A DNA stretch of 21,580 nt. It comes from a virus. Positions 10,490 through 19,988 of the stretch are shown here, piece by piece. Position 1 is the stretch's first letter, and every line of letters begins with the position of its first letter. The position numbers were made by a program, and so were the translations under genes. A model generated the notes under the pieces. The model saw only the letters and a list, made by a program, of their open reading frames with translations, did not search any database and was not told where the DNA came from. The stretch spans positions 1 to 21,580 of the IMG/VR virus record IMGVR_UViG_3300031749_000036, one strand, 5' to 3'.

Positions 10490-13400
10490 CTACACCACCG
10501 GCGCCGCCACGCAGCGGCAGTTATGACTGATGAAGCCTTTCGCCACGTAGCTTTCATCATCTTCCACGGCAAAGTTATACAGGCGGCGGGGTTTCCTGAG
10601 TTTCCATCTTTGCACAGCAGATACCTCAATCTCAGTCTGCTGATAAGTGCCTGCATGATTAAGACTAAGGAGGTCGTAAGTTTCTTCCCTCTCCTGATGT
10701 CCTGCTTCATTGAAAATTAAATGGCATATTTTATGATCAGGATATTGCGAAAGGATTTCTAAGTCTCGTTTTCGTTCTCTCATCGGATCATTGTGATACC
10801 AAGGGGGATCACACTCGAGAAAAAGCTTATACTCAGGTAAATAGAAATCTACCCGGCGATTGCCCACAAAGAATTGCTGGATATAATTCTTACCATTGTA
10901 CTCCAGGAGTGATCTAACTTTCTTATCAAATCTGGAGCCATACCATCCTGCTTTGCCCAAAGCCACAAAGGCGGTTTTTCTGAGCATATCGAGGCGGCTT
11001 CCCCACTTGGCGATAATCGCCTCTTCTACTCTTCTCTGGAAAGTTCCTTCAGGAGAGCGATCAACCGTTGCTAAATAACCACCTTCACCATACTTTTTAA
11101 ATGCTGTTTCTCTTGCTTTTTTGGTTATTTCATGGCGATTCCTTATGCCCTCTTCATAATCCCTATGAAGCTGTTGTCTTGTTTTTCGGCTTATATTTTC
11201 CCGATGGGCCGGATCATTCCATTGCTTTTCTGTAATTGCTTTGCTTAGACAGGAATGATTACAGTACCTCCGCCAATAGGGGATTGCCTCGCCGCAGTAG
11301 CGGCAGAAGGAGGCTATTATTTTAATCCGATCTCCGGGCTGGATATGCTGTGCCTGTTTCCATGAACCGTCAGCCATCAGGAAGCGGTGCTCCGGGGTAA
11401 TGACCACGCTTCGTTTATTTTTCAGCCAATCTCCAGCTGGAGTAAGCCGGACGACTTCGCCTGAATAGGTAGAGCCTGTGGAAATCCGGGTGACCTTGCG
11501 AAACTGGTTTTTATGAGTCAGCACCATATCGCCAGGTTTGATTTTTCCAATAGGTTTCCATCCCTCTGTTGTAAAAATAGGAACTTGGTGATCTATGAAG
11601 CAGTTTATGGTTTCCTCCGGCGGTCCGTTGATATCACAGGGATAAAGGCATCCGTTGGGGAAAACCTGCCCACGCTCCATCACCATGCCGTTCAGCATCT
11701 GATGCGACTCCCTGACGTGCTCATCCCCGGCGGTCACCCACTGGATTTTCTCCACCTTCATCTGGTCCATGGCCGCATCCCGGGCTATGCCCATGGCCTG
11801 GCCGGTCTCCGTGCGGGCGATGGTGAGGGACCTGGACTGGGCGAAGTTGTAAACCTGCTTCACCCGGTCCATGAGGTCCGCGGTGTTCTCCATCTTTCCC
11901 ATACCCTCAATGAGAGTATCCCGCAGTTGCGCCCGCACTGTGTCGTTGATGCCCACCACCTTTATCAGCTTGTTTTTCAGGGCGGCCATGGCCGGGGTGT
12001 CCACCAGGGTGAAGATGCCCGGGTCCGCCCCCAATTCGGCGAGAAGCGATTCTCCCGCCTGTTGCCCGATCTCCAGATACAGAGGCCAAATCATCTTGCG
12101 GAGGATGGCGTTTTCCTCATCCGAATCCAGTAGCAGGGACTCCACCGCCAGTTCCCGGGTGACGGCTTTGCCCAGCGCCTCCTCCATTTTCCGGAGCTGG
12201 CGCTTGCGCTGCTCGTAGAAATAGCGGCTGATCTTGCTTTGGACCGTTTTCTCCAGGGGGGTATGTACCGCCAGGTAAGCCTTCCAGTAGGCTTCTGAGT
12301 CAAAGCGATGGACAAAAAAAGGCGCGGCGAGCAGTAGCGAAGGGCTACTGTCCGCCGCGTGCGCAATTAGTTCTTTTACAGGCTCTTTAGGGGGTGCGAC
12401 ATGAGTCATCGGGGTCAGGTTGAATGGCAGATAGCCCACGTCTCCGCCCTCCACCTGGGGCAGGCCCAGGCCCAGGTATTCATTGACGGTATTGAGCGGC
12501 ACCCCCATGGACCAGAGTTTCTGGGCCGAGTCCATCAGTTCGTTCCGATCCTCGTGCAGGGCGCTGATGCTGGAATAATCAAACTCGGCCCAATTGCGCC
12601 CGCCCTCGATCCGGCGCAGCAGTTGGCTCCACAGGACGAACTCGAAGAGGGCCATCTTGGGGAGCAAGGTGTTTTCCCAGAAGAGCTTCCGCTGGGTTTT
12701 GGCCGTGGCGTAATTTACTTCATCATAGAGCCCCAGTTCCGGCTTGGGCACCTTAAAAGCCGCCATGATCTCTTCCCGGTTCCATTTGCGCTGCTCCAGG
12801 AAGTCCATGTCCTTCTGGGAGAGACCCGTCTGCTTGTAAGTGACGCCCCCCTCCAAAAGAGCGATGGCATGGGCCTTGGGGGCCCCGCCGTGTCGGTCCT
12901 GCCACTGGGCCAGTAGCCGCTGGTATTCCTCGTCGGTGAGGTTGCCGGAGGTTTCCAGCACTCCCCCGGGCTGGGCCGAATTTTTGAAAAACGCGGTGTT
13001 GTACTGGCCGGCCCAAAAATCCTGCTCGATGCCCGCCCTGGCCGCCTGGAGCGGAGCAAGACCCCGATAGTCATTGTAGGGATTGAAGTAGCGGAAAAAG
13101 ACCACCTCATGGGGTTGGAGGGGGATTTGTCGGGTGCCCTTGCTGTATATCCAGCCCGAGATCAGGCCGGATTTTTCGTCCACCACCTCTTTGAACCGGT
13201 CGGGGTGAACCACCCACATCTCCCTGGGGATTTCCAGTTCGCTCCGCCGGTCTAGGATGTAAAAGGCCTCGCCGGTGAGCCCAAGATAAATCAGGGTTGC
13301 CTCAATAAGCTGGCTCCCGGACATCAAGGGATTGGGAGTTTCAAAGAGATCAATCAGGGGGTGAGATTCTAATACTTGAGAATCTTTGCGGGTGCCGGTC

Positions 13401-13636
13401 TTGAAGAGCAGGGGAACGCCGCTGATGCTCTGGGCGATGGCGTTGATGCAGGCGTAAACCCAGACGTGCTCCCGGTAGGGCTGGGTCAACTTGGCGGTGA
13501 GGTCTGAGGAAAGAAGATGGGGAGAGAGGAAAAAGAGACGGGTGGCCTCAGGGAAATAAGGCGTTTCACGCGTCGCGACCGCGGTATTGCCCCACAATGC
13601 CGCCAACCCCCTGCGAATGAGTCCCAGCAAGCGCAA
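10490..13636 (-). CDS. Portal-MuF fusion protein containing an intein
   Basis: This is a 1048-aa precursor. Residues 1-410 match an HK97-type portal (H-V-W-V-Y-A-C-I-N-A-I-A-Q-S near 55; F-F-K-N-S-A-Q-P-G-G-V-L-E-T near 210; E-L-G-L-Y-D-E-V-N-Y-A-T near 300). A linker and helical region (about 430-560) leads to a MuF/SPP1 gp7-like domain (A-R-T-E-T-G-Q-A near 605; A-G-D-E-H-V-R-E-S-H near 635; P-P-E-E-T-I-N at 672-678). The domain's conserved N-C-R-C is split by a 361-aa intein (679-1039), leaving C-R-C-V-A-A-P-V-V as C-extein; the spliced product would be 687 aa. The longest start is TTG 13636, but AAGGA is only 1 base from it. A second TTG at 13630 is 7 bases from AAGGA and is the better start. 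An in-frame TGA lies just upstream. Confidence 0.93.
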   Translation of the reverse strand: MRLLGLIRRGLAALWGNTAVATRETPYFPEATRLFFLSPHLLSSDLTAKLTQPYREHVWVYACINAIAQSISGVPLLFKTGTRKDSQVLESHPLIDLFETPNPLMSGSQLIEATLIYLGLTGEAFYILDRRSELEIPREMWVVHPDRFKEVVDEKSGLISGWIYSKGTRQIPLQPHEVVFFRYFNPYNDYRGLAPLQAARAGIEQDFWAGQYNTAFFKNSAQPGGVLETSGNLTDEEYQRLLAQWQDRHGGAPKAHAIALLEGGVTYKQTGLSQKDMDFLEQRKWNREEIMAAFKVPKPELGLYDEVNYATAKTQRKLFWENTLLPKMALFEFVLWSQLLRRIEGGRNWAEFDYSSISALHEDRNELMDSAQKLWSMGVPLNTVNEYLGLGLPQVEGGDVGYLPFNLTPMTHVAPPKEPVKELIAHAADSSPSLLLAAPFFVHRFDSEAYWKAYLAVHTPLEKTVQSKISRYFYEQRKRQLRKMEEALGKAVTRELAVESLLLDSDEENAILRKMIWPLYLEIGQQAGESLLAELGADPGIFTLVDTPAMAALKNKLIKVVGINDTVRAQLRDTLIEGMGKMENTADLMDRVKQVYNFAQSRSLTIARTETGQAMGIARDAAMDQMKVEKIQWVTAGDEHVRESHQMLNGMVMERGQVFPNGCLYPCDINGPPEETINCFIDHQVPIFTTEGWKPIGKIKPGDMVLTHKNQFRKVTRISTGSTYSGEVVRLTPAGDWLKNKRSVVITPEHRFLMADGSWKQAQHIQPGDRIKIIASFCRYCGEAIPYWRRYCNHSCLSKAITEKQWNDPAHRENISRKTRQQLHRDYEEGIRNRHEITKKARETAFKKYGEGGYLATVDRSPEGTFQRRVEEAIIAKWGSRLDMLRKTAFVALGKAGWYGSRFDKKVRSLLEYNGKNYIQQFFVGNRRVDFYLPEYKLFLECDPPWYHNDPMRERKRDLEILSQYPDHKICHLIFNEAGHQEREETYDLLSLNHAGTYQQTEIEVSAVQRWKLRKPRRLYNFAVEDDESYVAKGFISHNCRCVAAPVV
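10520..11602 (-). other. Intein with Zn-finger and Vsr-like homing endonuclease domain
   Basis: The 361-residue intein has all the splicing blocks. Block A starts at Cys1 (C-F-I-D-H-Q-V-P-I-F). Block B has Thr69 and His72 in V-V-I-T-P-E-H. Block F is R-R-L-Y-N-F-A-V-E-D-D-E-S-Y-V-A. Block G is F-I-S-H-N with penultimate His360 and Asn361, followed by Cys+1 of the extein. Between the splicing halves lie Cys100, Cys103, Cys114 and Cys118 (a CxxC-x10-CxxxC finger), a NUMOD3-like basic helix near 125-165, and a nuclease near 220-300 with V-D252-F-Y-L-P, L-E263-C-D265, H270 and R-D280. That pattern resembles Vsr/DUF559 (EDxHD) nucleases, not LAGLIDADG. A hand count of a 60-base piece inside (11101-11160) gives 37% GC against 67% at 12001-12060 of the extein, consistent with transfer. 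Confidence 0.9.
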
Positions 13637-17427: not shown

Positions 17428-18615
17428 TCACAGGTCCATGGGCATGACAATCCATATGGAGCCAGGGTCGGAGGCATCCTGAAGCCGCACGGGCCGGTTG
17501 GCCTCGTTGAGCTCCATGACCACTGTCTCCCCCTGCATCACCGCCAGCGGTTCCAGGAGATAGCGGGCGTTAAAGCCGATGGCCCAGGGGTCCTCTTTGT
17601 CGCAGACCTTCTCCAGGATTTTCACCGTTTCCTTCCCGGCCCCGACTTCAGGGTTTTCAAAAGCCACCTCCGCCACTGATTCGGTCAGGGTGATGATCAC
17701 CCCCCGGAAGCGGTCCGTAGAAAGCAGGGAGACCCGCTTCAGCGCCGCGGCCAACTCCTGGCGGTTGAAGGTAAAGCGGTGCTTGCATCTTTCCGGGATG
17801 ATGCGCTGATAATCGGGGAATCTCCGGTCCAGCATGCGCGTGGACAACTCCTTGTCCCCGGCTTGGAGAAAGAGGGTCTGTATCTTGGGTTTAGTTTTCG
17901 TGACGCCTTCTTCATACTTATATTCCACCTGAACAACCTCAAACCCAAGCTCCACCGAACCACCCTTGCTATTGTTTTCCACGAACCGTTTGATTTCCCG
18001 CACGGCCTTGGCTGGCACCAGAATACCCTCCGGCCATTCCAGTCTATCCAACTCCGGTTGCGCCTGTTCCGCCAGGCTCAGGCGGTGGCCGTCGGTGGCG
18101 ACCATGCGAAGATGGTAATTGCCGCCCACCTCCCGCCGTTCCCACAAGGTGCCTGACAAGTTGTATTGCAGATTGTCAACGGACATGGCAAAACTGGTCT
18201 TATCCATCATGTCCAGGAGCGCCTGGGCCTCCACCGCCACCAGGGAAGCTCCCTGACTGGAGGGCAGGGACGGAAACTGCTCCGCCGGGAGCGTTAGGAA
18301 TTTGTATTCCGAGTCCCCGGCTTCCACCTTTACCTGCTTCTCGTCACCGGTGATTCGCAGGGTCCCTTTTGGCAGGTTCTTCACCAGGCCGTGGAAGGTG
18401 TGGGCCAGGACCGCAAGAGTCCCAGGCTCCTGCACCTCCGCCGGAAACCGGCCCTTAAAGGATAGTTCCAGGTCGGTGGCGGAGACGGCAAACCCCTGGT
18501 CGTCGGCCTCCATCAGGCAATGGGCCAGGATAGGCATGGTGCCCCGTTTGTCCACCACGCCCAGGACGTGTTCCAGGGCACGGGCCAGATCGCCCTGTTC
18601 AACGCTGAGTTGCAT
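17428..18615 (-). CDS. dnaN: DNA polymerase III beta sliding clamp
   Basis: This is a 395-aa protein covering the full length of a bacterial clamp (about 366-400). Three repeated domains can be followed. The first has L-A-R-A-L-E-H-V-L-G-V-V-D-K-R-G-T-M-P-I-L-A-H, the second V-A-T-D-G-H-R-L-S-L-A, and the third ends with the usual S-I-W-I-V-M-P-M-D-L C-terminus. The V-A-T-D-G-H-R-L and P-I-L motifs are diagnostic. It rings the DNA and tethers the replicative polymerase. ATG 18615 has GAGGAGGAATTG upstream, and the 67-aa gene overlaps it by 17 bases. A clamp inside a phage region implies a role in phage DNA synthesis, perhaps replacing the host clamp. Confidence 0.96.
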   Translation of the reverse strand: MQLSVEQGDLARALEHVLGVVDKRGTMPILAHCLMEADDQGFAVSATDLELSFKGRFPAEVQEPGTLAVLAHTFHGLVKNLPKGTLRITGDEKQVKVEAGDSEYKFLTLPAEQFPSLPSSQGASLVAVEAQALLDMMDKTSFAMSVDNLQYNLSGTLWERREVGGNYHLRMVATDGHRLSLAEQAQPELDRLEWPEGILVPAKAVREIKRFVENNSKGGSVELGFEVVQVEYKYEEGVTKTKPKIQTLFLQAGDKELSTRMLDRRFPDYQRIIPERCKHRFTFNRQELAAALKRVSLLSTDRFRGVIITLTESVAEVAFENPEVGAGKETVKILEKVCDKEDPWAIGFNARYLLEPLAVMQGETVVMELNEANRPVRLQDASDPGSIWIVMPMDL

Positions 18616-18815: not shown

Positions 18816-19988
18816 TCAGCCTAAAAATTCTTTGAGTCTTGCATTAACCTCCTCATGGTCCACCCAGGTTACTTCTTCGGTATTATGTAATGGACCGTCA
18901 TTTAGGGTATTTTGGGCCAGCCGGGTCGCTTCCTGGCGGCTGGCGTTCTCCAGCATGGCTTTCTTCATCAGGTTTAAGTGCTTGATAATCATCTCGATTT
19001 TCTCCAGGTTCACGTGGGTGTTCCCCTGGTGCACCTTGGCCAATACCCGGCAGTCCTCCGGGGAAAAAGATTTGCAGATGAGCCGGGTGACCGCGTTCAG
19101 CACCCTCTCCCAGCGGTTGAGCACTTCCTGGTGTTCCTTTTTGGGTTGCTCAAAAAGGGCCGTCTGTTTGCTGGCATCTACCAGGGCGTTGACAAACCGC
19201 CGCAAGTGGTTATGGGTAGGGAACTCGCCAGCTTTAATTTTGCGAAAAACTATCTCCTGATAGTTGTGGTCAGCAAGTTTGCTCATCCAACAGGCTTGTG
19301 ATGAGGATATCATCCCCTGAGCCAAGGCTTCCTGAAACTTGGACGCCAGGTTGAGTAGAGAAAGGCGCTCGTCAATGCGCCACACCTGCTTGAAGCCCAG
19401 CTTTTGGGCCAGGGTCTCCTTGGTGTAGCCGGAGTCCAGCATCTCCCGGAAAGATCGGGCCTCCTCCAGGGGTGATAGGTCTTGGCGCTGGAGGTTTTCC
19501 ACCAGGGCCATCTCCGCCACCTGCCGGTCATCAGCTTCGATGATCCTGACGGGCACCTTCTCCATCTCCAAATAAACCATCTGGCAGGCCCGCCAGCGCC
19601 GCTCCCCGGCCACTAGCATGAAGCGCTCCCCTCGGGGCACCACCACCAGGGGTTCAATCAGCCCCTGCTCTCTGATGGATTGGGCCAGTTCCTCCAGGGG
19701 TTCCTTGGGAAAAAACTTGCGGGGTTGGTTAGGGTTAGGGTAGATTAAGGACAGGTTGACTTCCTGGCTGCCGTTAGCTGGGGCCAGGGGGGTTGTTTCC
19801 GGGGGCGTGTGGCGGACGCCCCCTTTTTCTTTCTTGTAGCGCAGACAGTTTCTCTTGGGAGGCACAAACTTTTCGGGGTGAGTGCATTTGCCCACACCGG
19901 GGATTTTTTTCCCTTTGGCTTTGTTCATCATGCCTTTCTTGTAGGCACAAGTAAGGCATTGGGGGTTGTGTATCTCAACCTTTGCCAT
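18816..19988 (-). CDS. ParB/Spo0J-like protein with N-terminal four-Cys module
   Basis: This is a 390-aa protein. Residues 1-50 hold Cys11, Cys14, Cys35 and Cys48 (C-L-T-C ... K-C-T-H-P ... N-C-L-R-Y), a possible Zn or Fe-S module not part of standard ParB. From about 75 the ParB core follows: Y-P-N-P-N-Q-P-R-K-F, L-V-A-G-E-R-R-W-R-A (C-motif for CTP binding), and L-V-E-N-L-Q-R-Q-D-L-S-P-L-E-E-A, then an HTH region near 200. The C-terminal 140 residues are helical and less recognisable. No parA gene is adjacent, so it may act in phage gene control or DNA replication rather than in a partition pair. ATG 19988 has GAAGGAGG upstream. Confidence 0.9.
   Translation of the reverse strand: MAKVEIHNPQCLTCAYKKGMMNKAKGKKIPGVGKCTHPEKFVPPKRNCLRYKKEKGGVRHTPPETTPLAPANGSQEVNLSLIYPNPNQPRKFFPKEPLEELAQSIREQGLIEPLVVVPRGERFMLVAGERRWRACQMVYLEMEKVPVRIIEADDRQVAEMALVENLQRQDLSPLEEARSFREMLDSGYTKETLAQKLGFKQVWRIDERLSLLNLASKFQEALAQGMISSSQACWMSKLADHNYQEIVFRKIKAGEFPTHNHLRRFVNALVDASKQTALFEQPKKEHQEVLNRWERVLNAVTRLICKSFSPEDCRVLAKVHQGNTHVNLEKIEMIIKHLNLMKKAMLENASRQEATRLAQNTLNDGPLHNTEEVTWVDHEEVNARLKEFLG

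Follow-up and report, generated by a model that had tools for sequence, protein, structure and literature searches.

What interrupts the gene for the head-assembly portal-MuF protein in this virus, and is the interrupting element mobile? The window, i.e. the whole stretch of 21,580 nucleotides analysed here, is the entire IMG/VR virus record IMGVR_UViG_3300031749_000036. Its minus strand encodes a precursor that is strongly recovered by the portal family phrog_2662 (E 6.7e-114) and that shows the fusion typical of SPP1 gp7 and Mu F, with matches to PF04860, PF04233 and TIGR01641 and with a C-terminal NCRC motif that is uninterrupted in relatives. The precursor has 1048 aa, and 687 aa once the intein is removed; both lengths are upper limits, because the TTG at 13636 is merely the first possible start. 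Elsewhere the same virus has genes for a seemingly complete DNA polymerase III beta clamp, with matches to three Pfam domains, and for a ParB-like protein (17428-18615 and 18816-19988, minus strand). The precursor is organized as follows:

10490-13636, minus strand: precursor open reading frame of 1048 aa, portal fused to MuF (SPP1 gp7-like) and interrupted by an intein (PF04860, TIGR01537, PF04233)
12500-13459, minus strand: portal domain, precursor residues 60-379 (PF04860, E 4e-71)
11603-11929, minus strand: MuF domain N-terminal to the junction, precursor residues 570-678, ending in PPEETIN (PF04233, E 3e-12; intein-free relatives)
10520-11602, minus strand: intein of 361 aa, Cys1 to Asn361 (PF14890, TIGR01443, 49-member alignment, fold match to solved inteins)
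11312-11602, minus strand: Hint N-part, intein residues 1-97, with Cys1 and T69-P-E-H72 (family alignment, AlphaFold model)
10520-10639, minus strand: Hint C-part, intein residues 322-361, with block F and His360-Asn361 (TIGR01443, family alignment, AlphaFold model)
10490-10519, minus strand: C-extein CRCVAAPVV and stop codon, Cys+1 being the first Cys of the CRC motif (sequence, intein-free relatives)

The first-pass annotation had proposed an intein with all splicing blocks at 10520-11602, inserted in the N^CRC motif of the MuF domain, and our analysis confirms a class-1 intein located between Asn678 and the CRC of the portal-MuF protein, with exactly these borders. The element spans precursor residues 679-1039 (1083 bp, or 361 codons, in frame with the 13636-10490 reading frame), from the Cys1 codon at 11602-11600 to the codon of the final Asn at 10522-10520. 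All residues of a class-1 intein are present (C1, T69-P-E-H72, block F, H360-N361 and C+1), and both the Pfam Intein_splicing model (PF14890; 37.6 vs 35.8 bits) and the TIGR01443 intein_Cterm model exceed their cut-offs. An AlphaFold model built with 49 sequences (mean pLDDT 88.8) superimposes its Hint part on solved inteins with Z-scores of about 18 and rmsd of 1.4-1.9 Å, e.g. 2lwy (Z 18.6, 1.5 Å, 129 residues) and the Mtu RecA intein 2in0 (Z 18.4, 1.9 Å, 130 residues). As 48 homologous inteins align along the entire length with invariant C1, H72 and N361, and as the model fits solved inteins, chance is excluded as the source of this similarity.

The point of insertion is equally well defined. 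The PF04233 match ends at the junction in the interrupted protein, whereas in intein-free relatives it continues to profile position 111/112. Using the joined flanks as a query against viral contigs, we recovered three intein-free viral sequences (L134-L136) with 78% protein identity over 144 aa spanning the junction and 75-79% DNA identity across it, in which the junction reads E-V-I-N-C-R-C-V-A-A-P-V-V. Once near-copies were discarded, the intein-free set numbered 53 relatives, each continuous through IN-CRC without a gap; the empty site therefore counts as observed. The expectation that excision would restore PPEETIN joined to CRCVAAPVV, for which a comparison with intein-free homologues had been suggested, is thereby borne out, these relatives running directly through INCRCVAAPVV. 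At the DNA level the site is conserved in them as GAgGAaAC.ATcAAcTGcCG.TGc. It is reasonable to infer, from general knowledge of inteins, that the function of the portal-MuF protein depends on splicing and that the location in a conserved motif shields the element from loss. The same data bear on whether the Hint domain might instead be a hedgehog/BIL-type or toxin-type module, or the product of an assembly artefact that fused two genes. The PT-HINT and Hint_2 models do match it too, but Cys+1 is present, an endonuclease is nested at the canonical place, the empty sites are precise and 48 relatives occur on other contigs, all of which makes such an origin extremely improbable.

The unusual part of the element, absent from the first reading of the sequence, is the type of its nuclease. 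About 224 residues between the two Hint halves comprise a zinc finger, a helical stretch and a small α/β nuclease:

11240-11311, minus strand: treble-clef-like zinc finger C100-x2-C103-x10-C114-x3-C118, intein residues 98-121 (Cys conservation; weak PF09889 and phrog_3339 matches)
10940-11239, minus strand: helical linker, intein residues 122-221 (AlphaFold helices; match to the phrog_3339 homing endonuclease at 97-203)
10703-10939, minus strand: predicted EDxHD/Vsr/DUF559-type nuclease core, intein residues 222-300 (Pfam, 3r3p profile match, and a residue table with D226, D252, E263, D265, H270 and R279)

Sequence profiles point to an embedded nuclease of the EDxHD/Vsr/DUF559 kind. Among the 49 related inteins, Pfam matches were obtained to Intein_splicing in 48, MTES_1575 in 47, DUF559 in 44 and Vsr in 22. 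The top solved structure for the family profile is 3r3p (E 1.2e-11), with Vsr itself (1cw0) at E 0.014; 3r3p, named 'mobile intron protein' by its depositors, is the catalytic domain of I-Bth0305I. The latter serves as the example of EDxHD, one of six homing endonuclease families (review, PMC3943268). D252, E263, D265 and R279 are found in 49/49 members, H270 in 48/49 and D272 in 32/49. Three of the four zinc-finger cysteines are invariant and the fourth is present in 48/49, and the helical linker probably binds DNA in a NUMOD-like manner. The window sequence alone gives a weak match to the nuclease Pfam model (E 0.02), as does the profile of its own clade (A3) to 3r3p (E 0.005); since the own-clade match is weak, it is the alignment to family relatives that carries the nuclease assignment for the window. 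Foldseek and VIA searches with the whole model listed only Hint folds, the Hint matches filling the results. No LAGLIDADG or HNH model from Pfam matched any of the 49 members at E 0.01, and a nuclease of either kind was accordingly rejected for the window intein; phrog_559, which is labelled HNH, matches across the DUF559-like part. A search of 10520-11602 for a nuclease reading frame in an alternative frame found none.

The conserved acidic residue of the nuclease helix is Glu in 45/49 members, whereas the window and its two nearest relatives carry Asp (D226; 3/49), and the ECDG motif reads ECDP in the window; the nuclease could therefore be weak. These two departures (E226D, and ECDP for ECDG), together with a low-GC composition that could outlast the loss of function, are what might be expected of a splicing-competent intein whose nuclease is inactive and which has become a passenger. 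We regard this as unlikely, though as the most serious of the alternatives: D252, E263, D265, H270, R279 and the four zinc-binding cysteines are all retained, there is no frameshift or stop, and in the two nearest relatives, which share this Asp, the nuclease is under purifying selection. For this pair (L059/L110) dN/dS is about 0.18 in the nuclease and 0.13 in the splicing domain, with similar values in other relatives, which argues against a decaying passenger. The inteins of the two loci (L059:761-1858 and L110:4001-5098), the nearest relatives of the window intein, are themselves unusual in missing the penultimate His (CRN^C and ASN^C, respectively); the splicing-domain tree gives no resolution for the window intein as sister of these two.

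Relatives of the element came from scanning viral contigs twice and bacterial genomes once. Full-length elements directly precede the CxC of MuF, the site used in the window, in 59 cases (43 without near-copies), four more precede the second Cys of the CRC motif, and the inteins of L101, L115 and L117 precede a Cys of an upstream MuF motif. The presence of elements at these three sites marks MuF as an intein hot spot. N-exteins match MuF in 44/55 loci tested, and the nuclease model matches 62/63 inteins before CRC, CRS or CRG and 4/4 before the second Cys, the two 193-aa forms being matched through flanking residues only. In the window Cys+1 comes from the conserved CRC motif itself, and the other two sites likewise directly precede a conserved Cys; the hot spot may thus reflect the splicing requirement combined with a conserved DNA target. 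One locus (L122, 4001-4768 and upstream) has two inteins in a single MuF, one preceding the upstream-motif Cys and the other the second Cys of CRC, and L082 appears similar. Related inteins were also encountered in a Rokubacteria gene of the uracil-DNA glycosylase superfamily (L015-L017), where two (L015, L016) match the nuclease model and one intein of 146 aa is without a nuclease. Several candidates were set aside: L012/L013 and many genome matches (e.g. L025, L034, L045) represent other inteins, which by the nuclease-model test lack this nuclease, and in H24 an 'endonuclease' gene comes after MuF as a neighbour, with no intein present. The plasmids searched contained no relative, and isolated phages in GenBank yielded Hint or nuclease parts but no full-length relative.

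The history of the element was then compared with that of its host protein. In the extein tree the nearest relatives of the window are intein-free, and at least nine changes between presence and absence are required, three of them forced by well-supported branches. The intein has a GC3 of 0.435 vs 0.755 for the N-extein, a gap exceeding that of all 47 relatives (mean -0.12, lowest -0.31). Mean identity is 29% among interrupted exteins and 43% among their inteins. The two sets of identities are correlated (r 0.78), and a large part of the history may therefore be vertical. Natural forms without the nuclease exist: L126/L127 encode inteins of 193 aa in which the nuclease is gone and the zinc finger retained, beside the full-length L080, and L018 encodes one of 143 aa. 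The versions lacking the endonuclease, the purifying selection on the nuclease, the foreign base composition and the patchy distribution all agree with homing. A rival idea is that the element is not selfish and that its Hint domain now controls head assembly as a regulated or cleavage-only processing module. Insertion near the C-terminus, with a C-extein of just nine residues, would suit such a role, as would the lack of the penultimate His in L110 and L059, which could alter splicing kinetics; yet His360 is present in the window, close relatives are without the element entirely, and the nuclease and patchy distribution suggest mobility. Co-option thus appears improbable.

Our preferred reading, to which we assign a probability of roughly 0.9, is that a mobile class-1 intein resides in the MuF part, with a Hint domain for self-splicing and with the zinc finger, linker and EDxHD/Vsr-type nuclease for homing into the N^CRC site; splicing, DNA cleavage, homing and the DNA target of the element are all inferred. 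In the standard splicing route, an N-S acyl shift at Cys1 is followed by transfer to Cys+1, Asn cyclisation and an S-N shift. By this route the Hint domain would excise itself post-translationally, the acyl shift at Cys1 leading to transfer to Cys+1 of CRC, cyclisation of Asn361 and an S-N shift that would ligate PPEETIN to CRCVAAPVV. In a co-infecting relative, the zinc finger, linker and nuclease would together recognise and cleave the intein-free coding site at N^CRC, and the element would be copied in as the break is repaired from the interrupted allele.

The element shares with class-1 mobile inteins such as the Mtu RecA intein and PI-SceI the Hint fold, the splicing residues, a nested endonuclease, a site in a conserved motif and Cys+1, but the known ones mostly carry LAGLIDADG nucleases, in contrast to the zinc finger and predicted EDxHD/Vsr-type nuclease found here. 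With I-Bth0305I and other EDxHD homing endonucleases of group I introns and free-standing genes it has in common the nuclease core, by profile, and separate DNA-binding modules; however, I-Bth0305I is encoded in a group I intron, whereas the window nuclease is fused in frame inside an intein. The 'fractured genes' of Dassa (2009), in which a Vsr-like endonuclease gene reportedly lies between split intein halves, likewise pair an intein with a Vsr-like homing endonuclease within genes of phages; there, however, the nuclease gene is free-standing and the intein split, while the window encodes a single continuous cis-splicing polypeptide. Mycobacteriophage portal and terminase inteins (PMC5050341) also occur in phage packaging and head proteins, but at other insertion sites, with LAGLIDADG nucleases where shown, and MuF is not listed among them.

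Closest in position are the MuF inteins of the Gordonia phages Lennon and Barsten, which have a related Hint domain at the identical VIN^CRC site, in proteins labelled only 'minor capsid protein' in GenBank. They lack an in-frame EDxHD nuclease and instead carry in the linker an antisense reading frame of 206-236 aa with a phrog_5046 match and an I-MsoI-type LAGLIDADG motif (L132:4112-4732 and L131:4112-4822, minus strand). With a consensus query, helicase inteins were also recovered from Pseudomonas phage MR14, Corynebacterium phage phi673 and several Vibrio phages (L215:2294-3019, L216:2330-2968 and L217:2363-2992, plus strand). Their linker is open in frame, and the nuclease, with zinc finger, NPM motif and DUF559/MTES_1575 matches, is encoded on the same strand in the +1 frame. 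Identity among these phages is 39-47% for the out-of-frame nuclease vs 25-28% for the in-frame linker; the better conservation of the nuclease frame indicates that selection acts mainly on it. Outside inteins, the literature reports an out-of-frame HNH element in phage methylases (PMC11855218) and, in group II introns of phages, nucleases that are EDxHD/Vsr-like (PMC12350094, where the 'fractured genes' work is also cited).

A mobile intein is a known kind of element; what sets this one apart is the in-frame EDxHD type of homing endonuclease and the MuF hot spot. No description of an in-frame DUF559/EDxHD intein was found in the full-text literature, a body that extends neither to the founding papers of the nuclease family nor to preprints, and priority for such an intein is uncertain. 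How a homing endonuclease becomes nested in an intein is an old question, for which most described examples are LAGLIDADG enzymes. We consider it about an even bet that a large, unnamed lineage of phage inteins with in-frame EDxHD/Vsr-type endonucleases specialises in the Cys motifs of MuF, and that these, the helicase inteins with out-of-frame nucleases and the split inteins represent steps in the nesting of a free endonuclease gene. With the Vsr-type nuclease in frame here and out of frame in relatives, these elements offer natural material for testing the order of such steps. The MuF hot spot, with its three sites and sometimes two inteins per protein, indicates that a small Cys motif of a common phage head protein is repeatedly targeted, and the natural mini-inteins of 143 and 193 aa, free of the endonuclease, could become splicing tools.
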